NCBI RefSeq assembly: GCF_014762765.1
Contig: NZ_JABURH010000146.1
Span: 1 to 43,081 of the forward strand
Length of the DNA: 43,081 nt
Direction: 5' to 3'
Source: Alcanivorax sp.
GTDB lineage: Bacteria; Pseudomonadota; Gammaproteobacteria; Pseudomonadales; Alcanivoracaceae
Positions 8,159 through 37,408 of this stretch are shown piece after piece. How positions within the stretch are numbered: the stretch's first letter is position 1; each line of letters opens with the position of its first letter. The translations under genes were made by a program, and so were the position numbers. The notes beneath the pieces are model-generated. The model saw only the letters and a list, made by a program, of their open reading frames with translations, was not told the DNA's origin and did no database searches.

Positions 8159-8167
8159 CAATTGACA
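8140..8167 (+). repeat. RTTRAYA heptad array, single arm
   Basis: Four contiguous 7-bp units (GTTGACA, GTTGATA, GTTGACA, ATTGACA) overlap the last codons and stop of prmC. They are followed by GCGAAAA, the same junction seen in the element at 20409-20517. No inverse arm is found downstream. A REP hairpin begins 23 bases later. Because 7 is not a multiple of 3, the array offers stops in more than one frame. Confidence 0.8.
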
Positions 8168-8190: not shown

Positions 8191-8223
8191 GTAGGGTGCA
8201 CTGAGCCTAAGGCGAACTGCACC
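8191..8223 (+). repeat. REP-type hairpin with GTAG head
   Basis: The 33-bp unit starts with GTAG, followed by a stem pairing GGTGCA with TGCACC and an inner stem-loop GCC-TAA-GGC. A GTAG or GTGG tetranucleotide 5' of an imperfect hairpin is the known hallmark of REPs mobilised by RAYT transposases. Near-identical copies occur at 10945-11025 (inverted pair) and 29252-29284. No RAYT gene is in the window. Confidence 0.8.
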
Positions 8224-20408: not shown

Positions 20409-20517
20409 ATTGACAGTTGATAATTGAGAATTGATAGCGAAAACCACCGACTGCTCGTAGTAATACGTGGGGTGCTCCGTCAGTTTCGTTATCAATTACC
20501 CATTATCAATTATCCAT
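20409..20517. repeat. RTTRAYA heptad-armed palindromic element
   Basis: The left arm has four contiguous 7-bp units (ATTGACA, GTTGATA, ATTGAGA, ATTGATA; 20409-20436). The right arm has four inverse units (TATCAAT-type; 20490-20517). Each arm meets the 53-bp core through a matching junction, GCGAAAA on the left and TTTCGT on the right. The element fills the mreD-maf interval, starting 6 bases after the mreD stop and ending 13 bases before the maf ATG. No direct target duplication is obvious. Confidence 0.85.
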
Positions 20518-20530
20518 TTTTTCTGATCCT

Positions 20531-21118
20531 ATGATTCTTTACCTCGCCTCAGGTTCGCCACGTCGGGCAGAGCTGCTACGGCAGATTGCTGTCCCCTTTT
20601 CCGTGCTACCCGCTCCGGATATCGATGAAACCCCGTTGCCGCAGGAGCTGCCCCTGGAGTATGTGTGTCGCATGGCCCGTGAGAAGGCCCAGGCCGGGGC
20701 GGCGGCAGCTCATGGCCAGCCGGCTGGCGCTGTGCTTGGTGCCGACACTGCGGTGGTATTGGGTGATGAGATACTGGGCAAGCCGGCGGATAAACAACAG
20801 GCGCTGGCCATGCTGAAGAGTCTTAACGGAGGGGAGCATCAGGTCATGTCTGCGCTTGCCTTGTTGCACCGGGGGCAGCTGGAGGTGCGGTACGCCATTA
20901 CCCAGGTTCAATTCCGTGATCTTGATGAGGCGCAGTTGCAGGCTTATGTGGACACTGGTGAAGGCGCTGACAAGGCCGGTGGTTATGGGATTCAGGGGCT
21001 AGGTGCGGCGCTGGTGGCTTCGTTGACGGGCAGTTACAGTGGGGTAGTCGGCCTGCCGCTGGAACAGATGGTGGAATTGCTGGATCAGGTCGGCATCCGT
21101 TACTGGCAAACCAACTGA
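20531..21118 (+). CDS. maf: Maf-family nucleotide pyrophosphatase (YhdE-type)
   Basis: Maf proteins hydrolyse non-canonical or excess nucleoside triphosphates; the YhdE branch acts on dTTP and UTP. The 195-residue protein begins MILYLASGSPRRAELL with the substrate-binding SxxR motif. It has GADTAVVL (about 70-77), EHQVMSALAL and the C-terminal DKAGGYGIQGLGAALV segment, close to E. coli YhdE from memory. No Shine-Dalgarno is visible: the leader lies against the heptad element. The stop is only two bases from yhdP, whereas rng usually lies between them. Confidence 0.93.
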   Translation: MILYLASGSPRRAELLRQIAVPFSVLPAPDIDETPLPQELPLEYVCRMAREKAQAGAAAAHGQPAGAVLGADTAVVLGDEILGKPADKQQALAMLKSLNGGEHQVMSALALLHRGQLEVRYAITQVQFRDLDEAQLQAYVDTGEGADKAGGYGIQGLGAALVASLTGSYSGVVGLPLEQMVELLDQVGIRYWQTN

Positions 21119-21120
21119 CT

Positions 21121-24100
21121 ATGGCCTCGACCCGATCTAATCGCTGGCATCGACTTTATCCGTCCCTCTGGTGGCTGACGGTGGCCTTGCTGCTGCTGAT
21201 GGCGGCCTATGTCGTCGTCGGCCGCCAGTTGATGCTGCTGGTGCCGGATTATCGCGAACGGCTTGAAGTCCTCTTTGAAGAACGTATCCAGACACCGCTG
21301 ACCATCGCCGAGTTGGACGGCAAGATGTCTGGCCTGGTGCCCCAGTTTGTGGCCCGTCAGATTCGTCTGCCTGCCCCGGAAGGGGATACCGCTTTGGAGC
21401 TGGACGAAGTGGTTTTGGGGATCGATGTTTTTCGTTCCTTGTGGCACCGGGATCTGGTGCTCAGGGAACTGCGCATTCATGGTGTGGAGCTGAATCTTGT
21501 GCGCGGCGAGGATGGCAGCATCCGTTTGCGCGGACTGGAAGCGCTGGGCAGCAAGGATCCGGAGCAGCGCCCGCCGCTGGAGCGTATCCTCACCCTGTTC
21601 TACCGCCAGCAGTTGCTGGCGATCAGTGATGCCCGTCTGACTCTGGAGTGGCCGGGGATGCCGCCACTGGCGGCATCTGAACTGGATGCCACCTTGATTA
21701 ACCGCGGTGACGAGCACCGGTTGGCGCTGAACCTTGAAGCCCGTGACCGCCCCCTGTCCCTGCAGGCGCGGATTCACCTGCATGGAGATGCCTTTTCCCT
21801 GGAAGAGGTGGAGGCGGATCTCTATGCCAGCCTCAAGGGGGAGCGCCTACACGAGTGGCTGCCCGAGGAGCTGGGCTGGCCGGTGCAGGTGGCCGCGCTG
21901 GATGGGCGTATGAAAGTCTGGTCTACCCTGAAACAGGGGCAACCCCATGACGCCCGCATCAATCTGAACCTGCCCGCCCTGACACTACAGCAGGAGGGGC
22001 TGGTCTGGCCCATGACCGAGCTGTCTGCGCGGTTGGCTCTGGCCAGGGATGGGGAGAGGGCAACCCTGTCCCTGACTCGCCTGTCCGGTGATTCACCGGC
22101 CGGCGCGCTCAATTTAGGAGACATGGCGCTGCTTTGGCAGACTCGTGGCGAGCAGCGCCAATGGCAGTTCCGGGGCACTGAACTGCCGCTCCATGGACTC
22201 AATCAGCAGTTTCAGCAATGGCCATTTGCCTTGCCCGGTAGCCTGCAACAGGTCCGTGAACGTTTGGCGGTACAGTCGCCACGGGGGGTGCTGAATGGTG
22301 TCTATGTACGTGGCCGTGCACGGCAAGTAAAGAAGTTCCAGGTGCGCTTCACTGATCTGTCGAGCCAGGCGCAGGATCGAATACCGGGTGTGCAGGGGCT
22401 TTCCGGCTGGGTGTCCGGCAGCCCGTCCGAAGGCTTGGCGCACCTGCACAGCGATAATCTCAGCCTGCAATTTCCGAGGCTTTATGACCATGCCCTGGGA
22501 GGCCAGGTCAGTGGGTTGCTGGACTGGCGTCGGGACGGCGACCAGCTGCAGGTTCGTTCCGGGCGGTTGCGGGTGGTCAATCCTGATGCCCATGGCGAGG
22601 CGATGATGCAGCTCAGCCTGAGCCCCGAAAAGATTCCGCAATTGCGCCTGGCGGCAGAAATCTACGAAGGTAGCGGCGCCCGTGCCAGCCATTACATGCC
22701 GCTCAAACGGTTACCCGAGGGGCTGTCCGGCTGGCTCGCGCAAGCCATTCAGGGTGGGCACCTGCAACGTGGCCAGATTCTTTACCAGGGCCCGGTGAAA
22801 ATCGACAAGAGCCGGCAACAGGATCGTACCCTGCAGATGCGTTATCAGGGCCGCGATGTGCGGTTGTCTTTCCTGCCGGATTGGCCGGTGGCCAGTGACG
22901 TGTCGGCGGATGTGCTGATCAATGGTCGCCAGGTTCGCGGGCTGGCTCACAGTGGCAAACTGTTGGGTAGCCAACTGAAAGATGTGCACGTGGATGTGGC
23001 CGATTTTGAAATCGGCGAGACGCCCCGGCTGGTTGTTTCCGGCCAGGCCCGGGGGCCGTTACAGGATCTGGATACGCTCTTTCAGGATACCCCGCTGCGT
23101 AAACAGCTCCCCGAAGAGTTGCTGGACTGGCGTTTCCGGGACGGCAGTATGTCTGGTTATCTGTTGCTGGATATTCCCTTGCAGAAAGATAACGACGCCC
23201 CTGTGGTCATTGTGGATGCACAGGTGGACGATGCCACGCTATACAATGCGCCGCGCAAACTTCGGGTCACTGAAGCCTCGGCGCCAGTCTATTTCCATTT
23301 GCGTGACGGCATGCAGATCGACCGGCTGCAGGCTCGTGCTCTGGGTGGAACGTTCGGCGGTCAGTGGCTGACCCGGGATGGTCGCAGTCGTTTGCAGCTC
23401 GATGGCCGTCTGCCCATGAAGCAAGCGGCAAACTGGCTGGGGTTTGCCTGGCTCGAGCCGCTGTCAGGGCAGTTGCCGCTGGGGCTGACCGTACAGATCC
23501 CCTGGCAGGGCACGCCGTTTTCCCTGCGTGCAGCATCGTCGATGAAGGGTGTGACCGTGGATGCGCCGGCACCACTGGGTAAGTCAGCCGGGTCAACCCG
23601 TCCGCTGGATATCCGTCTCAGCAACCCTGGCGGTCGCCTGGCGATGAATCTGGAGTATGGTGGATTGTTGCGAGGCGCTTTGCGCATCGACAAGCGTATA
23701 CAGGGCGATCTGCTGCTGGGAAGCGGCACACTGCAAGTGCCGAGCGAGGGAATTCAGGTTCGCGGCCAACTGGCGGAAATCAGTGCGGAGCCCTGGATCG
23801 ACTTTATCGGTAACCGTCTGGTGCCCTCATTGAATGCGGGCAGCGGCGGTGGTGTCGGTTCCGCCGAGGCTACACTGAGCAAAGTCAGCCTGCAGGTGGA
23901 TCGCCTGGATCTGTTTGGCGTTGAAGTCGCTGACTCTCGGTTGTCTGTGCTGCCGGGGGATGCCGGGTGGGATATGGCGTTGAGTAGTCGTGCGGTGGCA
24001 GGGTCTGTGCGGATTCCCGACGGGTTTTCCGCTCGCGGTGAGGCGCCTCTGGAAATGTCGGTGTCCCGTCTCAATCTGACATTGCCTGAAGGGGCGCTTG

Positions 24101-24948
24101 GTGACGACGGAGAAACCCAGCCAGTGTCTCCGCTGATGCTGCCGCCTATGGATGCGGATTTCAGCAGCATCGTTATCAACGACGAGGATTACGGCCAATG
24201 GCGGGGCAAGGTACGGCCAGTGAAAGAGGGGGTACGTATTTCCGATCTGGATGGGCGTTGGCGGTCCAGTCGTTTTCAGGGCACGCTGGACTGGACTGAG
24301 CAAGCGGGTGAACAGTACAGCCGCTTCAATGGTAGCCTGACGTCGGACGACCTTGGGCATTCCCTGAAAGCCTGGGGGTTACCGGCTCTGATCGAGTCCG
24401 ATGATGCCCGCGCCCAGGTGGTATTGGGCTGGGCTGACTGGCCGCTGGGGATGAATTATCTTGCTCTGGAAGGGCAAGCCCAGGTGGATATCGGTGAATG
24501 CCGGATTCCCGATACCGATACCAAAACCTCGTTCCTGCGTTTGCTGGGAATTCTAAATATCGGGACTATCCAGCGTCGACTGAGGCTGGACTTCTCTGAC
24601 CTGTACAAGAAGGGCATGAGCTGCGACAGCATCACCGGCGATTTCTCTATCGATGGCTCTCGCGTGGCCACATCCAATCTGGCCATTGACTCGCCTTCTG
24701 CTGCGATTCGGGTGAAGGGTGCCATTGATCTGGAAAAGGAAACCCTGGATCACAACATGGAAGTCACGTTGCCATTGTCCAGTAACCTGTATGCAGGATG
24801 TCTTGCCGGGCCGGCAGCGTGCGCGGGCATCTTTGTCGTAGAGCGTATCTGGGGCGACCGGCTCGATAAGACTACTACCATGGAATATCGGGTAACCGGT
24901 AACTGGAGCAGCCCGCAGGTGAAAGAAACCGAGGGGATATTCGAATGA
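21121..24948 (+). CDS. yhdP: YhdP family AsmA/TamB-like envelope protein
   Basis: YhdP is a long inner-membrane-anchored periplasmic protein implicated in phospholipid transport to the outer membrane. The 1275-residue length fits. A transmembrane helix at about 18-40 (WWLTVALLLLMAAYVVVG) is followed by an AsmA-like opening (LTIAELDGKMSGLVPQF) and a long series of beta-rich repeats that would form a hydrophobic groove. The C-terminal segment (STSFLRLLGILNIGTIQRR to the YRVTGNWSSPQV end) is typical of the family. It is followed by nit with an ATGA overlap. Since mlaFEDB is absent near mlaC, this may be a more important lipid route here (inference). Confidence 0.94.
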   Translation: MASTRSNRWHRLYPSLWWLTVALLLLMAAYVVVGRQLMLLVPDYRERLEVLFEERIQTPLTIAELDGKMSGLVPQFVARQIRLPAPEGDTALELDEVVLGIDVFRSLWHRDLVLRELRIHGVELNLVRGEDGSIRLRGLEALGSKDPEQRPPLERILTLFYRQQLLAISDARLTLEWPGMPPLAASELDATLINRGDEHRLALNLEARDRPLSLQARIHLHGDAFSLEEVEADLYASLKGERLHEWLPEELGWPVQVAALDGRMKVWSTLKQGQPHDARINLNLPALTLQQEGLVWPMTELSARLALARDGERATLSLTRLSGDSPAGALNLGDMALLWQTRGEQRQWQFRGTELPLHGLNQQFQQWPFALPGSLQQVRERLAVQSPRGVLNGVYVRGRARQVKKFQVRFTDLSSQAQDRIPGVQGLSGWVSGSPSEGLAHLHSDNLSLQFPRLYDHALGGQVSGLLDWRRDGDQLQVRSGRLRVVNPDAHGEAMMQLSLSPEKIPQLRLAAEIYEGSGARASHYMPLKRLPEGLSGWLAQAIQGGHLQRGQILYQGPVKIDKSRQQDRTLQMRYQGRDVRLSFLPDWPVASDVSADVLINGRQVRGLAHSGKLLGSQLKDVHVDVADFEIGETPRLVVSGQARGPLQDLDTLFQDTPLRKQLPEELLDWRFRDGSMSGYLLLDIPLQKDNDAPVVIVDAQVDDATLYNAPRKLRVTEASAPVYFHLRDGMQIDRLQARALGGTFGGQWLTRDGRSRLQLDGRLPMKQAANWLGFAWLEPLSGQLPLGLTVQIPWQGTPFSLRAASSMKGVTVDAPAPLGKSAGSTRPLDIRLSNPGGRLAMNLEYGGLLRGALRIDKRIQGDLLLGSGTLQVPSEGIQVRGQLAEISAEPWIDFIGNRLVPSLNAGSGGGVGSAEATLSKVSLQVDRLDLFGVEVADSRLSVLPGDAGWDMALSSRAVAGSVRIPDGFSARGEAPLEMSVSRLNLTLPEGALGDDGETQPVSPLMLPPMDADFSSIVINDEDYGQWRGKVRPVKEGVRISDLDGRWRSSRFQGTLDWTEQAGEQYSRFNGSLTSDDLGHSLKAWGLPALIESDDARAQVVLGWADWPLGMNYLALEGQAQVDIGECRIPDTDTKTSFLRLLGILNIGTIQRRLRLDFSDLYKKGMSCDSITGDFSIDGSRVATSNLAIDSPSAAIRVKGAIDLEKETLDHNMEVTLPLSSNLYAGCLAGPAACAGIFVVERIWGDRLDKTTTMEYRVTGNWSSPQVKETEGIFE

Positions 24949-25793
24949 CGGTGACACGCTATCCGATTGCCGCCATCCAGATGACCAGCGGCAAGGAGCC
25001 GGATGACAATCTGCGCCAGGCCGGCGCGCTGCTGACAGAGGCCCGGAAAAAGGGGGCCTGTCTGGCTGTGCTGCCGGAAAACTTCGCCGCTTACGGTGGG
25101 GACTATCGGGCTCTGGGTGAGCGCCATGACGAGCTGGTTAGCTGGTTGTGTGGTCAGGCCCGGTCTCTGGACATGGCCATCATTGGCGGTAGCCTGCCGG
25201 CCCTGCAGCGCCCGGACGGCCAGCCGGTACCATCTCCTCTGGTACGCACCTGTTCCATCGCAGTCAGTGCTGCGGGGGAGCCGTTGGCACGTTATGACAA
25301 GCTGCATTTGTTCGATGCGGATGTGCAGGATGCTCAGGGACGCTACCGGGAGTCGGATTTCTTTGAGCCCGGCCAGGAGGTGGTGATGACCTCTGTGGGT
25401 GACCTGCAGGTGGGTATGGCAATCTGTTATGACCTGCGCTTTCCCGCTTTGGCCCAACGGTTGGTTGCCGCCGGAGCCCAGTTGCTGGTGTACCCCTCGG
25501 CCTTTACTGCTGTCACCGGGGCTGCCCACTGGCAACTGCTGCTGCGTGCCACGGCGGTACAGACCGGTTGCTATGTGCTGGGTGCCAACCAATGCGGCCA
25601 GCATGGTCCGCGCCGGGCCACCTACGGGCATTCCATGTTGGTGGACCCCTGGGGCCGAGTGGTAGACAGTCTGGGTGATTCTCCCGGGGCTCTTGTGACC
25701 GAGCTGGACCTTGCTACCATGAATGAGCTTCGGCAAAGAATGCCGGTTCAACAGCATCAACGATTCCGAATTGAAGGACCCTATGACACATAA
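24945..25793 (+). CDS. Nitrilase-superfamily amidase (Nit2-type)
   Basis: Carbon-nitrogen hydrolases of this branch act on small amides; several relatives are omega-amidases or deaminated-glutathione amidases. The 282-residue protein has the complete catalytic triad: Glu45 in LPENF, Lys119 in RYDKLHLFD and Cys161 in [10 protein letters not shown]. The start overlaps the yhdP stop as ATGA, with GAGGGG about 8 bases upstream. The end overlaps tldD by 11 bases. This yhdP-nit-tldD order is conserved in Pseudomonas. The exact substrate is not determined from sequence. Confidence 0.93.
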
Positions 25794-27225
25794 CGACGCC
25801 CTATCCATTGCCGAGTCCGTATTGTTGGCACCGGCAAACCTGCACACCCCGCAATTGGCGTCGCTGCTGAACGGTAAGCTCACTGGCCGGGCAGATTATG
25901 CCGACATGTATTTCCAGCACAGCCGTCACGAGGCCTGGGTGCTGGAAGACGGTATTGTTCGCGATGCCAGTTTCAATACCGAACGCGGTGCCGGGGTGCG
26001 TATTGTCCAGGGCGACAAGACCGGTTTTGCCTATAGTGACGACATCACCCTGGACGCGTTGCAGCAGGCCAGCGGTGCGGCCCGGGCCATTACCCGCCAG
26101 GGTCAGGACCGGCAGATTCAGCTTGCCAGTAGGGCGGTGCCGGCCCGTTATGCGGCCATTGATCCTCTGTTGGGCTGGCCTGCAGAAGACAAGGTGGCTC
26201 TACTGCAACGTATCGATGCCCTGGCTCGTTCATTGGACCCGGCCATCGTGGAAGTCACTGCAAGCCTTAGCGCCGAGCAGGATGTGATCATGGTGGTGGC
26301 CAGTGACGGCACCCTGGCAGCGGATGTGCGGCCGTTGATCCGCTGCAATGTAAGCGTGATTGCCGAGCGCAATGGTCGCCGTGAGCGTGGTAGTGCTGGT
26401 GGAGGCGGTCGTGTGGCCTATGACTGGTTGTTGCAGGAAGAACGTATCGAGACCTGGGCCCGGGAAGCGGTGCGCGGCGCCTTGCTGAATCTGGACGCCG
26501 AAGCTGCACCGGCGGGCACCATGCCGGTGGTGCTGGGGCCGGGCTGGCCCGGTGTGCTGCTGCACGAAGCCGTGGGTCATGGCCTGGAAGGTGACTTCAA
26601 TCGCAAGGGTACCTCCATGTTTGCCAAGAAATTTGGCCAACAGGTGGCATCCCCCCTGTGTACCGTGGTGGATGACGGCACTCTGGCGGATCGACGAGGT
26701 TCCCTGACCATTGATGACGAGGGTACGCCCACCGCCTGCAATACCCTTATCGAAAACGGCAAGCTGGTAGGCTTTATGCAGGACAAGACCAACGCTCGCT
26801 TGATGGGGGTGGCACCCACCGGCAATGGTCGCCGGGAGTCCTATGCCCACCTGCCCATGCCTCGAATGACCAACACCTATATGCTCCCCGGCGAGAGTGA
26901 CCCGCAGGATATCGTTGCCAGTCTCGACCGGGGCATCTATGCGGTGAACTTCGGTGGTGGGCAGGTGGATATCACCTCAGGGCGTTTTGTATTTTCTACC
27001 AGCGAAGCCTATCTGGTGGAAAAGGGCAAAATTGTCTGCCCGGTGAAAGGCGCCACCCTGATTGGTAGCGGTGCGGAAGTGATGAGCCGCATCTCCATGG
27101 TGGGTAATGATCTGGCCCTGGATAGTGGCATCGGCGTGTGCGGCAAGGACGGCCAGTCCGTGCCGGTGGGGGTGGGGCAGCCCACTCTCCGCGTGGATGC
27201 TCTCACCGTGGGGGGCACTGCCTGA
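25783..27225 (+). CDS. tldD: Metalloprotease subunit TldD
   Basis: TldD pairs with PmbA (TldE) to form a zinc protease that degrades unfolded peptides and matures peptides such as microcin B17 and CcdA-related substrates. The 480-residue protein has the metal site HEAVGH (His261, Glu262, His266) and the usual C-terminal beta domain. The start at 25783 is chosen because AAGGA stands 4 bases upstream and the length then matches E. coli; the frame runs open from 25723. Its partner pmbA is about 2.7 kb away, beyond an inserted gene pair and darP. It shares one base with the next gene (TGATG). Confidence 0.97.
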
Positions 27226-27686
27226 TGTCCCAGGTACTGGACGTTCTGTCACGCATGCGCCTGTTTGCCGGGCTCAGTGATGATGAGCTGGCAGTACTGG
27301 AAAAACTGGTGTTTGTTAATCGCGTCCCTGCCGGGGAGCCTGTTTGCCGGGAAGGGGATCGCAGTGACTTTGTCTGTTTTGTGGTGCGCGGTTGTCTGGA
27401 TATCGTCAAGAACAGCGAAGCGGGTGGAGAAGTGGTGATTGCTCATCTGCGCCCGGGTGATTCCATGGGCGAGATGGCACTGGTGGATCACGAGCCCCGT
27501 TCGGCGACGGTACGAGCTGCCGAAGACGCTACTCTGATCGTGCTCACCCGCAAGGGCGTCGAGCAATTGCGCAAACGCAGCCCCCATGCGGTCAGTCTGA
27601 TCATGGAAAACATCGCCCGCTTGCTGTGCCTGCATTTGCGACGCACCTCGTCACAGCTGGCCCAGTTCAAACTGCCGGTTGGATAA
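27225..27686 (+). CDS. Single-domain cyclic-nucleotide-binding protein
   Basis: The 153-residue protein is one cNMP-binding beta-roll plus C-terminal helices, with no helix-turn-helix or enzyme domain. The phosphate-binding cassette is intact: GEMAL (Glu83) and PRSATV (Arg92), so it should bind cAMP, cGMP or a related nucleotide. It starts within the tldD stop (TGATG), making it the last gene of the tldD unit, and ends 28 bases before the MORN-C13 lipoprotein. With no output domain it must signal by binding a partner. The downstream gene is a candidate partner, which is inference from position only. Confidence 0.9.
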   Translation: MSQVLDVLSRMRLFAGLSDDELAVLEKLVFVNRVPAGEPVCREGDRSDFVCFVVRGCLDIVKNSEAGGEVVIAHLRPGDSMGEMALVDHEPRSATVRAAEDATLIVLTRKGVEQLRKRSPHAVSLIMENIARLLCLHLRRTSSQLAQFKLPVG

Positions 27687-27714
27687 CGCCAATAAATACG
27701 CTGCAGGTTTGTCG

Positions 27715-29211
27715 ATGAAAGTATGCTGTCTTGGAATGGTTCTTGTCGCGTTGGCTGGCTGTGATCCAGTGCAATGGCCGGCAGATGTGCGTTTGCCGGA
27801 CGGGGCTGTCTACGATGGTGAAACCCGTAATGATCTCTTCCATGGTGAAGGCCGGCTCACCTGGCCCGATGGTCGTTACTATGAAGGAGCGTTTCGCGAA
27901 GGGCTTCTTGATGGCCATGGCAAGCTGGTAGACCGGCGCGGTTGTGTTCAGGAGGGTCAGTTTGTCGATGGCGTGTTGCATGGCGATGGGCAGTTCACCT
28001 GTGACGATGCCATCTGGCAGGGCCGGTTCGAACAGGGTGAGCTGGTAGAGGGCACCGTCAGCTATGCGGAAGGTGGCTCTTATCAGGGAGAGTTTCTGGA
28101 TCTCGCACCCCATGGCCAGGGGCTCTGGGTCACAGAAGGTGGCGAGCACTATGAAGGCCGATTCGAGAATGGCGAGTTACTGGAGGGCAGTTACCGGGAT
28201 GAGGAAGGTTACCGGTACGAAGGAGAGTTCCGCTATTTTTCCTACCATGGTCAGGGAGTTTTGACCCGGCCGGATGGTGTGGTGATCAAGGGTGAGTTTG
28301 AAAAGGGCTACGCCCATGGTAGCGGCACGCGCACTCAGCCGGCAGAGGGCGATGCTGAACCACAGGTAGAAAAAGGCTATTTCGTACGTGGTCGCTATTA
28401 TGCCAGTGAGCAGGCCTATCGGGAAAACCGCCATGCCCGGGCGGCGCAAATTGAGGCACGTCTATACACTGAGTCCAGCCGCTTGCAGTCGGTATTGTCC
28501 TCCCTGGCCCCGCAGCGGCCAGGTGTTCGTGATGTGTACCTGCTGGTGGTGGGCGGTGATGGCACCGAGGCCGTGTTTGCCCGTGAAGTGGACTGGGTGA
28601 CGGAACGGTTGGGGTCGGTGTTCGATCTCAAGCGCCGTCAGGTGCGTCTGATCAACGGTGGCAGTGATGACCTGCCCCTGGCTACCCGAACCAGTGTGCG
28701 TGAATCCCTGGAGGCACTGGATGCATTGATGGACCCGCAAGAAGACCTGCTCATGGTGCATCTGGTCAGTCATGGCTCCAAAGAGGGTGCCCTGTTGCTG
28801 GATGACCGGAACCTCAAGCTTAATGATCTGAGCGTGGCGGATGGCAAAAAGTGGTTCAACGCCCTGAAGGCGAAGCATCAGTGGCTGGTGGTGTCGGCCT
28901 GTTATTCCGGGAAATGGGTTGAAGCCCTGGCTTCCCCGCAGCGAGTGGTGTTCTCCTCCGCGGCATCGGATCGCACGTCCTTCGGTTGTGGTGACGACTC
29001 CGACCGCACCTGGTTCAGCAAGGCGTTATATGGTGAGGACATGGCTGCGGGCATTGATGACCCGGATGCCTGGTTTGCCGCGGCCAACCGCGAGGTGGCG
29101 CGGATGGAAGAAGAGCAGGGCATTGATGGGGAGGCGCACTCCATGCCGCAAAAAGCGGTGGGGGAGGCCTTTGTGCGCTGGTGGCAGGGTAAAGCAGTTA
29201 ATAGTGAATAG
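27715..29211 (+). CDS. Lipoprotein with MORN repeats and caspase-like C13 peptidase domain
   Basis: The 498-residue protein has a lipoprotein signal (lipobox ALAGC, Cys16). About eight MORN repeats follow (about 32-205), each of the YxGxFxxGxxxGxG type, for example YYEGAFREGLLDGHGK. A linker then leads to a C13/legumain-like peptidase domain (about 265-490). The catalytic dyad is visible as His353 in LVSHGS and Cys396 in VVSACYSG, and DRTSFGCG is another family segment. The lipid anchor predicts an envelope location. ATG 27715 places the signal at the N-terminus; a TTG at 27679 would bury it. The last codons (VNSE) and the stop lie in a heptad array, so the C-terminus has been rewritten. Confidence 0.88.
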   Translation: MKVCCLGMVLVALAGCDPVQWPADVRLPDGAVYDGETRNDLFHGEGRLTWPDGRYYEGAFREGLLDGHGKLVDRRGCVQEGQFVDGVLHGDGQFTCDDAIWQGRFEQGELVEGTVSYAEGGSYQGEFLDLAPHGQGLWVTEGGEHYEGRFENGELLEGSYRDEEGYRYEGEFRYFSYHGQGVLTRPDGVVIKGEFEKGYAHGSGTRTQPAEGDAEPQVEKGYFVRGRYYASEQAYRENRHARAAQIEARLYTESSRLQSVLSSLAPQRPGVRDVYLLVVGGDGTEAVFAREVDWVTERLGSVFDLKRRQVRLINGGSDDLPLATRTSVRESLEALDALMDPQEDLLMVHLVSHGSKEGALLLDDRNLKLNDLSVADGKKWFNALKAKHQWLVVSACYSGKWVEALASPQRVVFSSAASDRTSFGCGDDSDRTWFSKALYGEDMAAGIDDPDAWFAAANREVARMEEEQGIDGEAHSMPQKAVGEAFVRWWQGKAVNSE

Positions 29212-29224
29212 TTAACAGTTGATA
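29197..29224 (+). repeat. RTTRAYA heptad array, single arm
   Basis: Four contiguous units (GTTAATA, GTGAATA, GTTAACA, GTTGATA) overlap the final codons and TAG stop of the MORN-C13 gene. They are followed by GTGAAAC, similar to the GCGAAAA junction elsewhere. No inverse arm follows. A REP hairpin begins 27 bases later in the same relative order as at 8140-8223. Confidence 0.8.
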
Positions 29225-29251
29225 GTGAAACCCCTGAAGCGTGATGTGAGA

Positions 29252-29284
29252 GTAGGGTGCACTAAGCCTAAGGCGAACTGCACC
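29252..29284 (+). repeat. REP-type hairpin with GTAG head
   Basis: This copy differs from the 33-bp unit at 8191-8223 at one position (ACTAAGCC for ACTGAGCC). It keeps the GTAG head, the GGTGCA/TGCACC outer stem and the GCC-TAA-GGC inner stem. It sits between the convergent MORN-C13 and darP genes, where it could help to end or protect both transcripts. Confidence 0.8.
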
Positions 29285-29341
29285 AGCCGTTCATTGTTTC
29301 TCGGGCCAACGTTCATTGCTACAGGTTCAGTGCAGCACCTC

Positions 29342-29881: not shown

Positions 29882-29917
29882 TACATTTTCTGATTCTGGT
29901 TACGGAACCGCTATTTT
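29882..29917. promoter_or_regulatory. Very short divergent darP / pmbA intergenic region
   Basis: Only 36 bases separate two divergent start codons. Promoters for both genes must lie inside the opposite coding sequences or overlap here. An AT-rich tract and a GGTT-ACGG-AACC dyad are visible. Neither gene has a strong ribosome-binding site in this space. Confidence 0.45.
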
Positions 29918-31273: not shown

Positions 31274-31325
31274 CATATCCGGGCATTTTCAATGGATGAA
31301 AATTTTTTCGGGAAAGGAGCAAACC

Positions 31326-32081
31326 GTGAGTGAAATCAATCCGTATCAACAGCCGCAAGCCGAGCTGGTTGACGACAATAATCCACCAGCACAACCGCTC
31401 ACCATTCTGGCTGAGCCACGCAAGGTGAGTGTGGGAGATGCGCTGGGCTGGATCGGTAGTGGACACAAGATGCTGCCGGGTCACTGGGGTGTCGTGTTGG
31501 GGGCCTTGGTGGTTACTGTGCTGATCACCTCCGCTTTCCAGATTATTCCGCTGCTTGGCATGATCGCGCAGGTGTTGGCCACGCCCCTGCTATACGCCGG
31601 GATCGTGAAAATCTTCCATCGCATGGAAACCGAAGGTACGTCGGATTTTGCCGACCTGTTCGCTGCTTTCTCCGAGCGGACCGGCCCTCTTATTCTGATG
31701 GCCCTGGCTCAGCTCGGCGTGATGCTGCTGCTCGGGATTATCTTCGGGGGGCTGGGGTATGCAATGGGTGCTGGAGGCGGCGCTACTACAGGAGCCATGG
31801 TGGTGATCGGGCTGCTGGGGGTGGTAGCCGTGTTCGGTTTCGTATACCTGTTCTATTTCACTGTGCCACTGATCTTTCTGGGCAATAAGGGGGTAGGCGA
31901 AGCCATGAAACTGAGCCTCGGCGGCTTCACCCGTAATGTGATCCCCTTGATCGTTTACCTTCTGGTGACCATGGTGATCGTGCTGGTAGCCGCTTTGCCA
32001 CTGTTGCTGGGGTGGCTGTTCGTTATGCCGATTCTTGCCGGCGCCTACTACGTGTCCTTCCGGCAGATTTTTGTGGAGTAA
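31326..32081 (+). CDS. BPSS1780-type integral membrane protein
   Basis: The 251-residue protein has a polar N-terminal tail (SEINPYQQPQAELVDDNN) with the NPYQ motif common in this membrane family. About five or six hydrophobic segments follow, with a Gly/Ala-rich stretch near 150-160. The GTG at 31326 is chosen because AAAGGAG stands 6 bases upstream. An in-frame ATG at 31296 lacks this. The resemblance to the BPSS1780 family (COG5473) is from memory of its NPYxxP opening and membrane pattern, and its function is not known. It ends before the bidirectional terminator at 32104-32133. Confidence 0.8.
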   Translation: MSEINPYQQPQAELVDDNNPPAQPLTILAEPRKVSVGDALGWIGSGHKMLPGHWGVVLGALVVTVLITSAFQIIPLLGMIAQVLATPLLYAGIVKIFHRMETEGTSDFADLFAAFSERTGPLILMALAQLGVMLLLGIIFGGLGYAMGAGGGATTGAMVVIGLLGVVAVFGFVYLFYFTVPLIFLGNKGVGEAMKLSLGGFTRNVIPLIVYLLVTMVIVLVAALPLLLGWLFVMPILAGAYYVSFRQIFVE

Positions 32082-32103
32082 ATCCCGCTGGAAAGCATGA
32101 CCC

Positions 32104-32133
32104 AAAAAGGCGCCATTGATTGGCGCCTTTTTT
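32104..32133. terminator. Bidirectional intrinsic terminator
   Basis: A run of five A precedes a GGCGCCA/TGGCGCC 7-bp stem with a 5-base loop, followed by six T. The symmetry gives a U-tract after the stem on both strands. It lies between the convergent membrane-protein gene and mgtE and should terminate both. It is the clearest intrinsic terminator in the window. Confidence 0.92.
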
Positions 32134-32149
32134 GTGGGCGAATGAAAAA

Positions 32150-33514
32150 TCAGACCAGCAGATGCGCGTAGAGCACGGTGGCCAGACCCAGGAAGGCAAA
32201 GAAACCCACGATATCGGTGATGGTGGTAAGCACCACGGAGCCGGCCAGAGCCGGATCGATACCCATCTTCTTCATGATCATCGGCAGCATGGCGCCGGCA
32301 CAGGCGGCCATGATCAGGTTGATGATCATGGCGGCAGCGATGACCATGCCGATACTGGGGTCGTCAAACCACAGTGCTGCCGTAATGCCGATCACCGTGG
32401 CCCAAAGCAGGCCGTTCAGTGCGCCAACGGACAATTCCTTGACCAGCAGATAGCGGGTATTACTGGACTGGATCTGTCCCAGTGCCATGGCCCGGATCAC
32501 CAGGGTCAGGGTCTGACTGCCAGCGATACCGCCCATGCTGGCAACAATGGGCATCAGAATGGCCAGCGCCACCACTTTTTCCAGGGTGGCTTCAAACAGA
32601 CCGATCACGGCGGAGGCAGCCAGGGCGGTAAGCAGATTGATGCCCAGCCAGACAGCCCGACGCCGCGCCGTTTGCCAAACGGAACCAAAGGTGTCCTCGT
32701 CCTCATCCAGACCGGCCATGCTCATCAGTGAGTGGTCGGCTTCCTCGATGATCACGTCTACCACGTCATCAATGGTAATCCGGCCGACCAGCATGCCGTC
32801 TTCGTCCACCACCGGGGCGGTTACCAGATCCTGGCGCTCAAAGATCTTGGCCACTTCGTGAGCAGGCAAGTTGGCGGGAATGGATTCGGTATCAGTGATC
32901 ATGGCCTCGCGCACGGTGGTGCCGGGATCGCTGATCAGAACCTTGGTCAGTGGTAACAACCCGATAAACTGATTACGGCGATTGACCACTGCCAGGTTAT
33001 CGGTGGTGCGAGGGATTTCCCCCCGACGGCGCAGGTAGCGTTGCACCACTTCGAAGGTGATTTCCGGGCGGATGGTAATCACATCCGTGTTCATCAGGCC
33101 CCCGGCGGTATCCTCCGGGTAGCTCATCACCTGTTCCAGCCGGTCGCGATTCTGCTCGTCCAGGCTGGCCATGACCTGGCTGGTCACATGATCAGGCAGC
33201 TCCTGCAGCAAGTCGGCAAGGTCATCGGTGTCCAGCTCTTCCACCAGAGAGACCAGCTCATCAGTGCTCAGGTTGCGCAGTAGCTCAACCCGCACTTCCT
33301 CACCCAGATACTGGAGAACCTCGCTTTCCTGGTCCTTGCTGAGCAGTTGCCAGAGAATCTCCCGTTCCCGGGGCGGAAAGGATTCCAGCAAATGCGCCGC
33401 CTCAGCACCGGGCAGATTATTGAACAGCTGTCGAACCTGCGTATAGGTGCCGCTGGACAAGGCGCGGTTGATGACTTTGTGGTGTTGCTGGCTACGGCTG
33501 GTATCGGCGGGCAT
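32150..33514 (-). CDS. mgtE: Magnesium transporter MgtE
   Basis: MgtE is a homodimeric Mg2+ channel/transporter gated by cytoplasmic magnesium. The 454-residue protein has an acidic helical N domain (about 1-125), two CBS domains (about 130-255; MNTDVITIRPEITFE, VTAPVVDEDGMLVGRITIDD), a plug helix, and five membrane helices including GSQTLTLVIRAMALG and IINLIMAACAGAMLP. The ATG at 33514 (MPADTSRS) is chosen. The open frame runs to 33571, but its extra 19 residues are encoded by the heptad element. No Shine-Dalgarno is visible. It is the last gene of the rpoN-ptsN-rapZ-ptsO series. Confidence 0.94.
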   Translation of the reverse strand: MPADTSRSQQHHKVINRALSSGTYTQVRQLFNNLPGAEAAHLLESFPPREREILWQLLSKDQESEVLQYLGEEVRVELLRNLSTDELVSLVEELDTDDLADLLQELPDHVTSQVMASLDEQNRDRLEQVMSYPEDTAGGLMNTDVITIRPEITFEVVQRYLRRRGEIPRTTDNLAVVNRRNQFIGLLPLTKVLISDPGTTVREAMITDTESIPANLPAHEVAKIFERQDLVTAPVVDEDGMLVGRITIDDVVDVIIEEADHSLMSMAGLDEDEDTFGSVWQTARRRAVWLGINLLTALAASAVIGLFEATLEKVVALAILMPIVASMGGIAGSQTLTLVIRAMALGQIQSSNTRYLLVKELSVGALNGLLWATVIGITAALWFDDPSIGMVIAAAMIINLIMAACAGAMLPMIMKKMGIDPALAGSVVLTTITDIVGFFAFLGLATVLYAHLLV

Positions 33515-33522
33515 GGAATATA

Positions 33523-33608
33523 ATGAATAGTTAATAGTGAATAATGAATAACTCTCTGGATGGTACCCCAAATCCTGCGCTATTAATTATTCATTATTAA
33601 TAATTCAT
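33523..33608. repeat. RTTRAYA heptad-armed palindromic element
   Basis: Four units on the left (ATGAATA, GTTAATA, GTGAATA, ATGAATA; 33523-33550) face four inverse units on the right (TATTAAT, TATTCAT and variants; 33581-33608) around a 30-bp core containing GGTACC. It fills the interval between ptsO and mgtE. The right arm ends 6 bases (TGCCTT) from the ptsO stop, and the left arm begins 8 bases before the mgtE start, removing any usual ribosome site. Confidence 0.85.
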
Positions 33609-33614
33609 TGCCTT

Positions 33615-33884
33615 TTACTCTTCTTCATCAAAGCGACGGGCGAACAGATCGGTGAGTTCTTCCATGGCAGCGGTTTCATCATTCCCCTCCACCTGAAAGG
33701 TAATGCTGCTGCCCTTGGCCGCGCCAAGCATCAGCAGACCCATGATGCTCTTGGCATCTATCGGGTTGCCATTGTGAAGAACATGGATGCGACTTTCATA
33801 GCGAGAGGCCACGCTGACCACCTTGGCGGCAGCACGGGCATGGAGGCCGAGTTTATTGATGATATCCAGTTGTTTTTCGATCAT
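33615..33884 (-). CDS. ptsO: HPr-like phosphocarrier NPr
   Basis: NPr passes phosphate from EI-Ntr (PtsP) to PtsN in the nitrogen PTS. The 89-residue protein has the phosphorylation site KLGLHARAAA (His15) and the regulatory-site region DAKSIMGLLML (Ser46), and ends in an acidic tail (RRFDEEE). It follows rapZ by 15 bases, the usual order. Its stop is followed by AAGGCA and then a heptad-armed element. Confidence 0.94.
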   Translation of the reverse strand: MIEKQLDIINKLGLHARAAAKVVSVASRYESRIHVLHNGNPIDAKSIMGLLMLGAAKGSSITFQVEGNDETAAMEELTDLFARRFDEEE

Positions 33885-33899
33885 TGAGTGGCGTTGCCC

Positions 33900-34751
33900 T
33901 TAGTCCAGTTCGCGGTGGCGGACCTGGAGGGGAGTGCCCTCATCGCGCAGCCGTTTTGCCAGCTGCTCGGTAATGAATACCGAACGATGGCGGCCACCGG
34001 TGCAGCCGATGGCGACAGTCACATAGCTGCGATCACTTTCGGCAAACGCCGGCAACCAGCGTTTTACGAAATGATGAATATCCTCAAGCATGTCGTGGCT
34101 GGCCTCATGCTGCTGGAGAAAATCGATGATGGCGTCATCGCGGCCGGTAAAGGGTCGCAGGTCGGCCCGCCAGTGAGGGTTGGGCAGTACCCGTACGTCA
34201 AACACCAGGTCAGCATCATTGGGCAAACCGTTCTTGAAGCCGAAGGATTCCAGTTGCAGCGACAGGGTGGCACTGCGATTGGCTACCCGCTCGCGCATCA
34301 GGTTGCGGAGGCTGTGAACGTCGTAGTTGCTGGTGTCGATCACCAGGTCGGCACGCAGGCGGATGTTGGCCAGCAATTCCCGTTCGTGCTGTATGGCCGC
34401 TTCCAGAGAGCCTTGCTGGGCGCCCAGTGGGTGACGACGACGGGTGGCGCTGAAGCGTTTCAACAGGGTGCTGTCGTCCGCATCCAGATAAATGATCTCG
34501 GTCTTCACCTGCTGCTGGTGCAGGGCATCCAGGATGGCATCAAAGGCCAGCAGCTGGGTGGGTAGATTGCGGGCATCAATGCCCACCGCCGCACGCTCTA
34601 TTGGGAGCTCACCCTGGTCAAGCTGTTCCGCGAGTATCGGGAGCATGCCCACTGGCAAGTTGTCGACGCAGTAGTAGTTCTGGTCTTCCATGGCTTGCAG
34701 GGCGGTGGTTTTGCCCGAGCCGGAACGGCCGCTGATGATGGTGAGTTTCAT
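33900..34751 (-). CDS. rapZ: RNase adapter protein RapZ
   Basis: RapZ is an ATP/GTP-binding protein. In enterobacteria it senses glucosamine-6-phosphate and targets the sRNA GlmZ to RNase E. The 283-residue protein has a Walker A GRSGSGKT (8-15), the NYYCVDNLPVGMLP segment (about 25-38) and a C-terminal domain with GCTGGRHRSVFI. It lies between ptsN and ptsO as in most proteobacteria. Whether a GlmZ-type RNA exists here cannot be told, and the function outside enterobacteria is less certain. Confidence 0.95.
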   Translation of the reverse strand: MKLTIISGRSGSGKTTALQAMEDQNYYCVDNLPVGMLPILAEQLDQGELPIERAAVGIDARNLPTQLLAFDAILDALHQQQVKTEIIYLDADDSTLLKRFSATRRRHPLGAQQGSLEAAIQHERELLANIRLRADLVIDTSNYDVHSLRNLMRERVANRSATLSLQLESFGFKNGLPNDADLVFDVRVLPNPHWRADLRPFTGRDDAIIDFLQQHEASHDMLEDIHHFVKRWLPAFAESDRSYVTVAIGCTGGRHRSVFITEQLAKRLRDEGTPLQVRHRELD

Positions 34752-34857
34752 GGTTGCACCGTTTGCATGCTAATTGCAGCGCGTTGGCACGTAACATTGA
34801 TAGACGAGGCAATACCGTGGGTGTGTGCGGTGATGCCTGAAAGCGTGTTGCGTTCCT

Positions 34858-35331
34858 TCATGAGGCCAGTCGCAACTCCGCTTCGGATTCTACGGCGGTG
34901 TGATAAAGGTGGTGGTCGTTCTTGCTCAATCGCAGCTCGGCACGGTAATCGTCGTCGTTGAACAGGGAAGCCAGGTGACTGAGCGTTTTCAGGTGCTGTT
35001 CCGGGTTTTCCTGGGGAACCAGCAGTACAAAAACCAGATCTACCGGGCGGCCGTCAACGGCGTCAAAATCGATGGGGGTAGAGAGTTTCAGCAGCAGCCC
35101 GATGGGTTGCTGGCAGTGACCAAGACGGCAGTGAGGAATGGCTATGCCTTCACCGATGCCCGTGGAGCCCAGCTTTTCCCGGGCTACCAGGGCATCGAAG
35201 ACCTCCTGTTCGTTTAGGCTGTCGCAGCCGGCCGCGGCCAGCTGCGCAACCTGGTCCAGCAGCTGTTTCTTGCTGCTGGCCTGCACCTCGCTATGGGTGC
35301 GTGCTTCGGTGAGTAGTTCGCGAACTCGCAT
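34858..35331 (-). CDS. ptsN: Nitrogen PTS IIA component PtsN
   Basis: PtsN (EIIA-Ntr) is phosphorylated by NPr and regulates potassium uptake, nitrogen and envelope-stress responses by protein contact. The 157-residue protein has the phosphorylated His67 in GIAIPHCRL and segments REKLGSTGIGEG and VFVLLVPQENPEQHL, typical of the family. It lies between hpf and rapZ. About 106 bases separate it from rapZ, and the leader there has no clear promoter. Confidence 0.95.
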   Translation of the reverse strand: MRVRELLTEARTHSEVQASSKKQLLDQVAQLAAAGCDSLNEQEVFDALVAREKLGSTGIGEGIAIPHCRLGHCQQPIGLLLKLSTPIDFDAVDGRPVDLVFVLLVPQENPEQHLKTLSHLASLFNDDDYRAELRLSKNDHHLYHTAVESEAELRLAS

Positions 35332-35347
35332 AATTGTCGCTTTGGGT

Positions 35348-35647
35348 TCAGTGGCCGTGTTTGTGGCTGACGGCCTTTTCCTTGTGTTTGAGGATCTGGC
35401 GGTCGAGCTTGTCCGTCAGCTTGTCGATGGCAGCGTACATGTCCACTGCCTCAGCGGTGGCGAAGACGTCGGCCCCGGAGATATGGATAGTGGATTCCGC
35501 CTTGTGGGTCTTGGGTTCCGGGGAAAGAATCACCTGGACACTGGTAATCTGGTCGAAATGCCGTTCAAGACGGGAAAACTTGTCTCCCACATAGGCTCGC
35601 AAAGCGTCGGTAATTTCCAGGTGATGACCGCTGATATTAATTTGCAT
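35348..35647 (-). CDS. hpf: Ribosome hibernation promoting factor, short form
   Basis: Short HPF binds the 30S A/P-site region and, with RMF, drives 100S dimer formation in stationary phase. The 99-residue length and the segments ISGHHLEITDALRAYV and DMYAAIDKLTDKLDRQI identify it. The tail is His/Lys-rich (KHKEKAVSHKHGH). AAGGAG stands 6 bases before the ATG. It follows rpoN by 38 bases, the common rpoN-hpf-ptsN order. Confidence 0.96.
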   Translation of the reverse strand: MQINISGHHLEITDALRAYVGDKFSRLERHFDQITSVQVILSPEPKTHKAESTIHISGADVFATAEAVDMYAAIDKLTDKLDRQILKHKEKAVSHKHGH

Positions 35648-35685
35648 GTCTGGCTCCTTTACCTGCTCTTGGGCCGTCCCGGCGC

Positions 35686-37152
35686 CTACACCAAACGCTT
35701 GCGGGCGCTGGATGACGGTATTCTCATCGCCTCTCTGTACTTGGCGACTGTCCGGCGCGCCACGTTGATTCCCTGCTCGTTCAGCAAGCTTGCCAGCTTG
35801 TTGTCGCTGAGCGGCTTGCGGGGATTCTCGGCAGCGACCAGCTTCTTAATAATGGCACGAATAGCGGTGGAGGAACACTCACCGCCGCCGTCTGTTCCCA
35901 CGTGACTTGAGAAGAAATATTTCAGCTCAAAGACGCCGCGGGGTGTCATCATGTATTTCTGGTTGGTGACCCGACTAATGGTCGATTCGTGCATCTCGAC
36001 GGCATCGGCAATGTCGGCCAGAACCAGGGGTTTCATGGCCTCCTCTCCATAATCGAAGAAGTCCTGCTGGACTTCAACAATGCGGGTGGCCACCTTCAGC
36101 AGGGTGTCGTGGCGGCTTTGCAGGCTCTTGATGAACCACTTGGCCTCCTGCACGCAGTTGCGCAGGTACTGACCATCCTCTCCCCCGGCTTTGCGGGCCA
36201 TGGCGGCGTACTGCTGCTGCAGGTTGACCTTGGGCAGCACCTCCTCGTTCAGGCTCACCTGCCAGTGGCCCTGATGCTGGCGCACGATCACGTCCGGCAC
36301 CGCATAATCTACCTGGCTTTCACCGATCTGCTCCCCGGGTGCCGGGTCCAGGGTGCGTAGCAGCGAGAGAGCGTCGAGCAGGTTTTCCTCGCTGATCTGC
36401 AGTACCCGGCGCAGGGCGGCATAGTCGTGCTTTTCCAGTAGCTCCAGATGCCCCAGCAGGGCCAGGGCATAGTCCAGAAAGGGGGTGTCCGTGGGCAGTT
36501 GGCGCAGCTGCACCTGCAGGCAGTCGGCCAGATCCAGACTGGCGACTCCTACCGGGTCGAATTGTTGCAGGCGGTGCTGGACAGCCAGGACTTCATCGGC
36601 TTCCAGCTCGTCACCTTCGGTGAGCAGGTCATCCTGGGCGTTCATCATTGCCACAATGTCGTCCACGGTGACGGTCAGATAGCCGCGATCGTCCAGGGAT
36701 TCGATGATGGTCATGGCGATAATGCGGTCCACATCGCTCATGGGGGTCAGGTTCAGTTGCCAGAGCAGATGGTCCTGCAGGTTGCCGGCCACGCTATGGC
36801 GTTGCTGCCAGTCGTCGGCGTCGTCGGGGAGGGCGGCGGAAGTGCTGCTGGTCTGACCGGAATAGACATCGTCCCATTCCGTTTCGATGCCCGGCTCGTC
36901 GTCCACGAACTCTTCCAGGGCATCGTCCCGCTCGGTATCCAGCTCCTGGTCGTCCTGACGTTCTTCGTCAGCGTCGGGCAGGGATTCGTCACCAAAATCG
37001 TCGGCCAGCTCCAGCAATGGATTGCTTTCCACGGCCTGCTGAATCTCCTGACGCAGGTCCAGCGTGGAGAGCTGCAAAAGGCGGATAGCCTGCTGCAGCT
37101 GCGGTGTCATGGTCAGCTGCTGGCCGATTTGTAGTTGTAGGCTTGGCTTCAT
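35686..37152 (-). CDS. rpoN: RNA polymerase sigma-54 factor
   Basis: RpoN directs polymerase to -24/-12 promoters that need AAA+ activators, covering nitrogen, motility and other regulons. The 488-residue protein has the Gln/Leu-rich region I (MTPQLQQAIRLLQLSTLDL), an acidic region II (about 55-115), the core-binding region, and the RpoN box ARRTVAKYRE (about 465-474) that reads the -24 element. It is preceded by lptB, with a 256-bp gap holding a heptad-armed element and hairpins, longer than usual for this junction. Confidence 0.97.
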   Translation of the reverse strand: MKPSLQLQIGQQLTMTPQLQQAIRLLQLSTLDLRQEIQQAVESNPLLELADDFGDESLPDADEERQDDQELDTERDDALEEFVDDEPGIETEWDDVYSGQTSSTSAALPDDADDWQQRHSVAGNLQDHLLWQLNLTPMSDVDRIIAMTIIESLDDRGYLTVTVDDIVAMMNAQDDLLTEGDELEADEVLAVQHRLQQFDPVGVASLDLADCLQVQLRQLPTDTPFLDYALALLGHLELLEKHDYAALRRVLQISEENLLDALSLLRTLDPAPGEQIGESQVDYAVPDVIVRQHQGHWQVSLNEEVLPKVNLQQQYAAMARKAGGEDGQYLRNCVQEAKWFIKSLQSRHDTLLKVATRIVEVQQDFFDYGEEAMKPLVLADIADAVEMHESTISRVTNQKYMMTPRGVFELKYFFSSHVGTDGGGECSSTAIRAIIKKLVAAENPRKPLSDNKLASLLNEQGINVARRTVAKYREAMRIPSSSARKRLV

Positions 37153-37315
37153 ACTGCTCAGGCTGATGTCGTCCCCAAAACCTGAGAATAGCAGTCTATC
37201 TGCAATACAAGCAATATTTGTGCCAATGGTGGTTCTGTGCTAAGGGAGGCAATTAATAGTTAATAATGAATAATTAATAACGTCGCGGAATAGCTTGTCT
37301 TTTTTTCAAGGTAAG

Positions 37316-37344
37316 AGGCCGCGCTCATGCTTTGGGCGCGGCCT
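37316..37344. terminator. GC-rich hairpin in element core
   Basis: AGGCCGCGC pairs with GCGCGGCCT (9 bp, 11-base loop). No T-tract follows on either strand, so intrinsic termination is uncertain. The stem shares AGGCCGCGC with the prs hairpin at 268-298, which is also enclosed by heptad arms. It may act as an attenuator or RNA stabiliser between lptB and rpoN. Confidence 0.5.
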
Positions 37345-37347
37345 AAT

Positions 37348-37368
37348 CGCTTGCAAACAGTGCAAGCG
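37348..37368. repeat. Second hairpin in element core
   Basis: CGCTTGCA and TGCAAGCG form a perfect 8-bp stem with a 5-base AACAG loop, immediately beside the hairpin at 37316-37344. No T-tract is present. Its role is unknown. Confidence 0.5.
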
Positions 37369-37408
37369 GCTGTCGCGTAGCTATTCATTATTAACTATTA
37401 ATTGCCTT

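Follow-up and report, generated by a model that had tools for sequence, protein, structure and literature searches.

We analysed a 43,081-nucleotide stretch of DNA from Alcanivorax sp. (contig NZ_JABURH010000146.1, referred to here as the window) that carries a family of intergenic palindromes whose arms are built from tandem 7-bp units. These palindromes are elements like the intervening sequences (IVSs) of rRNA genes, placed at intergenic sites and with a population structure resembling that of REPINs and their RAYT genes. They probably descend, as copies without a gene, from mobile elements whose coding form carries the gene for a 23S rRNA-intervening sequence protein (IVP), with the IVP recognising the heptamer arrays in trans in the manner of the RAYT/REPIN systems. 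This reading builds on direct observations of the anatomy of the elements, the reappearance of that anatomy across many phyla with a unit particular to each locus, a match of presence and absence within the family, empty sites and the exchange of cassettes between species.

The coding form was found in the source genome (G000; other genomes are denoted likewise) at G000:C32:9407-9844, where an element with a 382-bp interior encodes a protein of 118 amino acids (gene at G000:C32:9449-9802, locus L255). The protein is a member of both PF05635 (23S rRNA-intervening sequence protein, 90.1 bits) and TIGR02436 (four helix bundle protein, 101.4 bits). The coding cassette of 434-464 bp comprises an arm of about four 7-bp units, the IVP gene and an inverse arm. 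Coding and non-coding forms have the same kind of terminal arms, as is the case for miniature inverted-repeat transposable elements, in which terminal inverted repeats are common to full-length and short forms. Such elements are further marked by duplicated target sites and by a parent encoding a DDE transposase; here the only recognised gene of the parent is that for the IVP. The fold predicted from an alignment of 33 IVP proteins consists of four helices (mean pLDDT 94.8), and the model matched 2rld, an S23-family protein of Bacteroides (BT_0352), with a TM-score of 0.92 and 55% identity, and 2gsc (Xcc0516) with a TM-score of 0.82. A weaker match was obtained to Avd of a diversity-generating retroelement (4dwl; TM-score 0.76, Foldseek E 0.06), at E-values similar to those of other helical bundles, and chains of the diversity-generating retroelement ribonucleoprotein 8ub7 were also matched. 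The Xanthomonas IVP structure is described as a homopentamer in PMC4990558, and 2rld contains five chains. We also noted that the IVP of the source genome, 55% identical to BT_0352 in the structural alignment, is only about 20% identical to IVPs of other subfamilies, including those of its own genus, which suggests transfer of IVP genes between phyla.

Further copies of the arms are plentiful in the source genome (3.52 Mb in 211 contigs). Four contiguous RTTRAYA units, the consensus proposed in an earlier sequence-only reading of the window, gave 63 forward and 53 reverse matches with at most two mismatches. With at most one mismatch, (RTKGANA)4, here called the G-class, gave 99 matches and (RTKAANA)4, the A-class, gave 40, about 139 in total, arms of more than four units being counted more than once in such totals. 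The heptamer arms of that reading are far above chance, and its consensus has to give way to RTKRANA, which fits better: three contiguous RTKRANA units matched the window 12 times (overlapping registers counted) against 0.00 expected from 100 dinucleotide shuffles, and (RTTRAYA)4 with up to five mismatches averaged 0 matches across 20 Markov sequences. A reversed-pattern control was unusable as a null because RTTRAYA reversed is a rotation of itself.

Arms could be paired into 52 elements in the stretches fetched from the source genome, one mismatch per unit being allowed. Exactly four units were present in 43 left and 40 right arms. Core length was 99-109 bp in 37 elements and 20-81 bp in 13, and the remaining two cores measured 1237 bp and 375 bp, the latter being the IVP element when an extended arm is counted. 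A typical copy spans about 160 bp, of which about 103 bp are a core homologous between copies, and shortened copies span about 80-110 bp. Thirty-eight standard copies, picked by core length, align to a single consensus with an inner GGCCGCGC..GCGCGGCC hairpin, and several short cores start with GCGAAAAC or GCTAAAAC; the initial impression that the cores are unalike therefore applies to the short variants and fails for the majority. Similarity searches with the stretch around the element at position 37252, flanks included, returned 6-46 matches per genome in 17 genus genomes (23 candidates scored in each), and among the matches listed at least 15 of the 17 had matches within the element alone.

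Unit position 4 agrees between the two arms in all 52 elements (G/G in 40, A/A in 12, mixed in none). For the 34 elements that have 4+4 units the arm-to-arm identity was 0.887, versus 0.851 when unit order was permuted (largest of 500 permutations 0.871) and 0.801 against the arm of another element. With the predominance of four units, these figures bear out the earlier suggestion of selection for architecture over simple slippage. Neither of the outcomes named beforehand as counting against that reading, a scarcity of further copies or a freely varying unit number, occurred in the source genome. The near-constant unit number that had been claimed mostly holds there, and relatives also have expanded arms: an arm at G006:C1:2078492-2078547 has grown to eight perfect GTGAATA units, and G005:C4:129685-130016 contains about 47 GTCTGAG units. 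Because of such long expansions we conclude that slippage acts on some arms.

The distribution of the repeats follows that of the gene. An IVP gene of this subfamily occurs in 24 of 46 family genomes, in one copy each (PF05635 genes overall number up to four per genus genome). The same 24 genomes have 14-91 matches to (RTTRAYA)4 with at most one mismatch and the remaining 22 have 0-2; within one genus (g3), eight genomes have both IVP and repeats and five lack the IVP and have 0-2 matches (Fisher p = 0.0008, shared ancestry ignored). With looser units, some IVP-lacking genomes of this genus gave higher numbers, the G- and A-class matches being 25 and 44 in G039, 28 and 16 in G018, 17 and 16 in G043, and 6 and 10 in G034. 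G018 and G043 have another IVP with AGTTRAA-type arms, to which their matches correspond. Arms enclose the IVP gene at all 24 loci (22 by script, with G012 and G045 read separately), and both flanks were homologous in all 22 loci tested.

Comparison of orthologous loci, which the sequence-only reading had proposed as a search for empty sites, revealed such sites in some species and different arm classes in others. The glyA-nrdR gap (gene names throughout were read by eye from translations, without a family search) contains an IVP cassette in 23 of 30 genomes inspected. It is empty (at most 59 bp) in G026 and G037, two genomes of another genus, has no arms in G015, and holds a palindrome with RCAGGAT units in G034 and G043 and with AGTTRAA units in G018 and G039. 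The genomes nearest the source genome in the flanks, G010, G001, G003 and G006 (glyA 90-95%, nrdR 81-98%), share only 70-71% identity with it over the IVP segment and 60-75% over the arms, whereas G009, G002 and G005 (glyA 87-93%; nrdR 81-85% in its near part and 61-65% in its far part) reach 80-84% and 89-96%, respectively. Although glyA by itself barely splits the two groups, the greater divergence of the cassette in the flank-nearest congeners, and its closer match in the more distant ones, leads us to infer from these identities that species have exchanged the cassette, arms included, at a fixed site, where either lineage may have been the recipient. Non-coding arms and cores likewise vary in class among congeners in the rpoN-lptB, mreD-maf and npr-mgtE gaps, and some species have none; G012 is missing from one of these alignments, and no region was obtained from G002 and G015 at some sites.

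The association of IVP genes with inverted arrays of short units extends well beyond this subfamily. Around the remaining PF05635 genes of the genus lie inverse heptamer arrays, whose units differ and include GTCGGAC, AGCTACA, CGAGTTT and CGCAACA, and a scan detected an inverted repeat at 28 of 30 such loci, the period being judged by eye. We then considered 80 named IVP loci from many phyla, which are the best 80 matches of a scan and no random sample; two were dropped for short flanks. The best flanking inverted repeat had a period of 7 at 63 of the 78 usable loci and of 8 at eight, weak repeats included, with locus-specific units, and 66 of the 78 lay above the 95% point of mismatched flanks. 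Under a strict criterion, 50 of the 71 loci with full flanks (nine of the 80 left out) passed, whereas 289 dummy positions taken from these loci yielded none. On cyanobacterial plasmids, in the 12 of 22 records considered, the period was 7 at nine IVP loci and 8 at two, with none at one. Similarity of units tracked identity of the IVP proteins (Mantel r 0.317, with at most 0.131 in 999 permutations; n = 91), a correlation that shared or linked descent alone could be enough to yield. By a lenient count at 69 IVP loci, units per arm had a mode of five (28 left and 24 right arms) and mostly ranged from three to six, with a maximum of 23. None of the 80 named loci contained two of four 23S motifs, although this is a weak test.

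Six Pseudoalteromonas loci (L184-L187, L192 and L206) have expanded arms with up to 23 units on one side, and five loci assigned by title to the Bacteroidota/Ignavibacteria group (L204, L207, L231, L234 and L236) have 8-bp rather than 7-bp units. In the cyanobacterial loci L326, L330 and L333 the IVP gene lies between CRISPR genes (cas6 and cas4 twice, cas10 and cmr3 once), with arms of period 7, 7 and 8, respectively.

All of the arms originally recognised in the window were confirmed, namely three paired elements (4+4, 4+4 and 4+3 units around cores of 53, 30 and 102 bp) and two single arms of four units, as follows.

20409..20436, plus strand: left arm in the gap between mreD-like and maf-like genes, units ATTGACA, GTTGATA, ATTGAGA, ATTGATA
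20437..20489, strand neutral: short core of 53 bp that starts with GCGAAAAC and ends with CAGTTTCGT
20490..20517, minus strand: right inverse arm of four units
33523..33550, plus strand: left arm in the gap between npr-like and mgtE-like genes, units ATGAATA, GTTAATA, GTGAATA, ATGAATA
33551..33580, strand neutral: short core of 30 bp
33581..33608, minus strand: right inverse arm of four units, the outermost imperfect
37252..37279, plus strand: left arm of a standard element in the gap between rpoN-like and lptB-like genes, units ATTAATA, GTTAATA, ATGAATA, ATTAATA
37280..37381, strand neutral: standard core of 102 bp with an inner GGCCGCG..CGCGGCC hairpin
37382..37402, minus strand: right inverse arm of three units
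8140..8167, plus strand: single arm of four units that overlaps the 3′ end of open reading frame (ORF) 7322-8158 (prmC-like) and provides its stop codon
29197..29224, plus strand: single arm of four units that overlaps the 3′ end of ORF 27679-29211 and provides its stop codon

A near-identical counterpart of the 20409-20517 element occupies the same site in G003. The arm at 33523-33550 falls within the 5′ extension of the mechanically called ORF 32150-33571, the true start of which is likelier to be further in. The elements of the window lie between protein ORFs or at ORF ends and not in a 23S rRNA helix, and an Rfam search of the window at the gathering threshold returned only a tRNA.

The following mechanism would account for these data. 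One IVP gene of the subfamily is held per genome at the fixed glyA-nrdR site, and non-coding copies would supply the tens to hundreds of arm matches. The IVP, for which a pentameric ring is reported in a homologue, would recognise the repeat arrays, probably as DNA. It would most likely act through binding in trans, and by analogy with the action of a RAYT on REPINs it may copy or swap the palindromes. Intervening sequences of rRNA that contain an IVP ORF would then represent such elements at home within rRNA. A broader version, which we advance tentatively and hold to be somewhat short of probable, is that IVP proteins define a class of mobile elements spanning phyla, with ends made of inverted 7- or 8-bp arrays read by an oligomeric ring and with copying or exchange that uses no nuclease or reverse transcriptase of its own; rRNA IVSs and the heptamer families of cyanobacteria, Beggiatoaceae and Xanthomonas would be its traces.

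A number of results weigh against the interpretation of the palindromes as copies of an IVP element. No nuclease, recombinase or reverse transcriptase was seen encoded in the element, in which the IVP gene is the only recognised gene. No target duplication could be read at the empty sites, the species being too diverged. Pure homing is an incomplete model, since the same site holds different heptamer families. Although palindrome unit and IVP agree at glyA-nrdR in G018, the prediction of an AGTTRAA-type IVP in G039 and a RCAGGAT-type IVP in G034 and G043, which would be cognate to their glyA-nrdR palindromes, failed, neither being found in those genomes. Eleven of the 71 IVP loci with full flanks had no convincing arms even by a looser criterion. 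The arm class at the IVP locus is a loose guide to the class of the copies across the genome: G-class arms made up a fraction of 0.02-0.24 in ten genomes whose IVP arms are A-class and of 0.04-0.97 in the 14 whose IVP arms are G-class (uncorrected p = 0.011), and G009, G001, G016, G044 and G002 combine G-class IVP arms with mostly A-class copies. A second family, GTCNGNN, had 54-100 matches in four genomes with its IVP (one gene with an in-frame stop). Two genomes that lack this IVP had 102 and 163 matches and a further 11 had 0-43, counts that are inflated by long arrays; a clean match of presence and absence was accordingly rejected for this family.

Among the alternatives, we take most seriously, though as unlikely, the possibility that these are RNA-level elements, in which the IVP binds the transcribed palindrome and steers its processing or stability, and the copies are cis-regulatory sites or were spread by reverse transcription in an Avd-like manner. 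Avd works with a reverse transcriptase, and the similarity of fold between the IVP model and both Avd and the 8ub7 chains fits such a scheme, as does the position of several IVP elements between co-directional genes. Avd is also described as resembling PF05635 (PMC10053308), and RNase III excises rRNA IVSs (PMC4990558). Selection on an RNA strand was nonetheless rejected, as G-U mismatches between arms showed no excess over A-C mismatches in any of four sets, a result that speaks for recognition of DNA over RNA: 87 versus 109 at 65 gene-oriented named loci, 23 versus 18 at 24 other loci of relatives, 19 versus 35 at 20 loci of this subfamily (p = 0.04 in the opposite direction), and 22 versus 21 over 21 pairs in the 38 standard non-coding copies. 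Moreover, a PF00078 reverse transcriptase is present in only six of 17 congeners and absent from the source genome, so the element does not require a reverse transcriptase and an obligatory partner of this kind was rejected. Rather less likely, in our view, is that the IVP is a DNA-binding protein of benefit to the host, with a role in the nucleoid, operons or terminators, and that the palindromes are sites of its regulon spread by selection and horizontal gene transfer. The fixed, single-copy IVP locus and the recurrent occupation of the same intergenic sites would suit this, but gain and loss among congeners, exchange of cassettes along with their arms, and the many relatives without the element do not.

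We consider it improbable, to a slightly greater degree, that a RAYT/IS200-like Y1 transposase moves the palindromes, which would then be REPIN-type elements, and that the IVP is only a passenger. A palindrome population with one cognate gene does resemble the REPIN/RAYT arrangement, and a search of 45 family genomes detected Y1_Tnp genes in 36, among them every one of the 15 IVP-bearing congeners that it covered (but not in G015). However, none of 19 stretches around Y1 transposase genes from eight genomes contained three or more perfect RTKRANA units, compared with 18 of the 24 IVP loci; Y1 genes also occur in members without the RTTRAYA repeats (e.g. G026, G037 and G042), and it is IVP genes that the arms frame across many phyla. 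A Y1/RAYT engine was rejected for this want of adjacency, common as the genes are, and since they are present in most of these genomes an unlinked Y1 helper is possible. Scarcely credible is an origin as tandem repeats that arose by slippage and became palindromic by chance or local inversion with no dedicated protein. The expanded arms in G006, G005 and the Pseudoalteromonas loci are what slippage would produce, yet the mostly fixed unit number, the homologous cores, the class concordance of all 52 arm pairs and the linkage to IVP genes across phyla led us to reject a slippage microsatellite.

Interpreted as an IVP element family, the palindromes combine traits of several known systems. In REPIN/RAYT systems one gene per genome resides at a kept locus and many palindromes are intergenic; the present family shares the single cognate gene and the many non-coding palindromes, with the IVP in the place of the RAYT, and differs in that the IVP is not a Y1 tyrosine transposase, the heptamer arrays are not REP hairpins and none of the 19 stretches around Y1 genes carries such arms. 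The diversity-generating retroelement protein Avd is similar in fold and differs in its reverse transcriptase partner, given the sparse occurrence of PF00078 noted above. Cyanobacterial STRR-type heptamers are tandem 7-bp units of variable number; on cyanobacterial plasmids, the arms of nine of the 12 IVP loci have period 7.

A close resemblance exists to rRNA IVSs, named for Coxiella, Leptospira and Brucella in PMC4990558. That of Coxiella contains an IVP gene and a 28-bp terminal stem, and two or three GACAGAT heptamers, depending on the strain, plus one degenerate unit are described upstream of the ORF; the account treats them as a variable repeat, quotes the idea that the ORF serves mobility and, in the passages on this IVS, does not state a heptameric inverse arm (PMC4990558). 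The elements reported here are alike in having an IVP/S23p gene within terminal inverted repeats of about 28 bp (the 4 × 7 bp arms) and differ in lying outside rRNA, either between genes or within operons, and in being accompanied by many non-coding copies. Intergenic heptamer arrays are also a feature of Nostoc and Xanthomonas (units GGGGAYT and GGGAATC). In Xanthomonas the arrays may be paired and convergent, with 70 cases in X. campestris and a longest perfect array of 14 units named for Xcc; the relevant passages of PMC4692102 name no protein partner and report that the arrays are generally not found with mobile elements. Accounts of the TAACTGA repeats of Beggiatoaceae describe intergenic 7-bp direct repeats that create stops in all three forward frames and for which a repeat-binding protein was proposed as a possible mobile element; unlike the elements of the window these mostly form one direct array each, of two to six copies, with one inverted case. 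The view that the inverted layout is not a described class thus needs qualifying in the light of the Coxiella stem (PMC4990558) and the Xanthomonas convergent pairs (PMC4692102). We found no report in the open-access literature of a general association between heptamer arms and IVP genes.

PMC4990558 treats what S23p/IVP proteins do and how rRNA IVSs spread as open questions. Placing IVP genes of many phyla within inverted heptamer arrays, with a cognate population of non-coding palindromes in one bacterial family, makes both testable, the arrays being predicted binding sites and the palindromes predicted substrates. Several puzzling families of heptamer repeats could share one cause.

The two single arms of the window have a further feature in common. 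A second repeat, GTAGGGTGCACTRAGCCTAAGGCGAACTGCACC, is found at 8191-8223 and 29252-29284, no more than about 30 bp after each of them, and the site orthologous to 29252-29284 in G001, G003 and G010 holds GTAGGGTGCACTRAGCCTAAGGCGAACTGCACC or a relative of it, accompanied by a copy in inverse orientation. On account of this arrangement, a second palindrome family may have disrupted the elements to which the single arms belonged. ORF 27679-29211, with its stop codon inside the second of these arms, encodes apparent MORN-like repeats followed by a putative caspase-like part.

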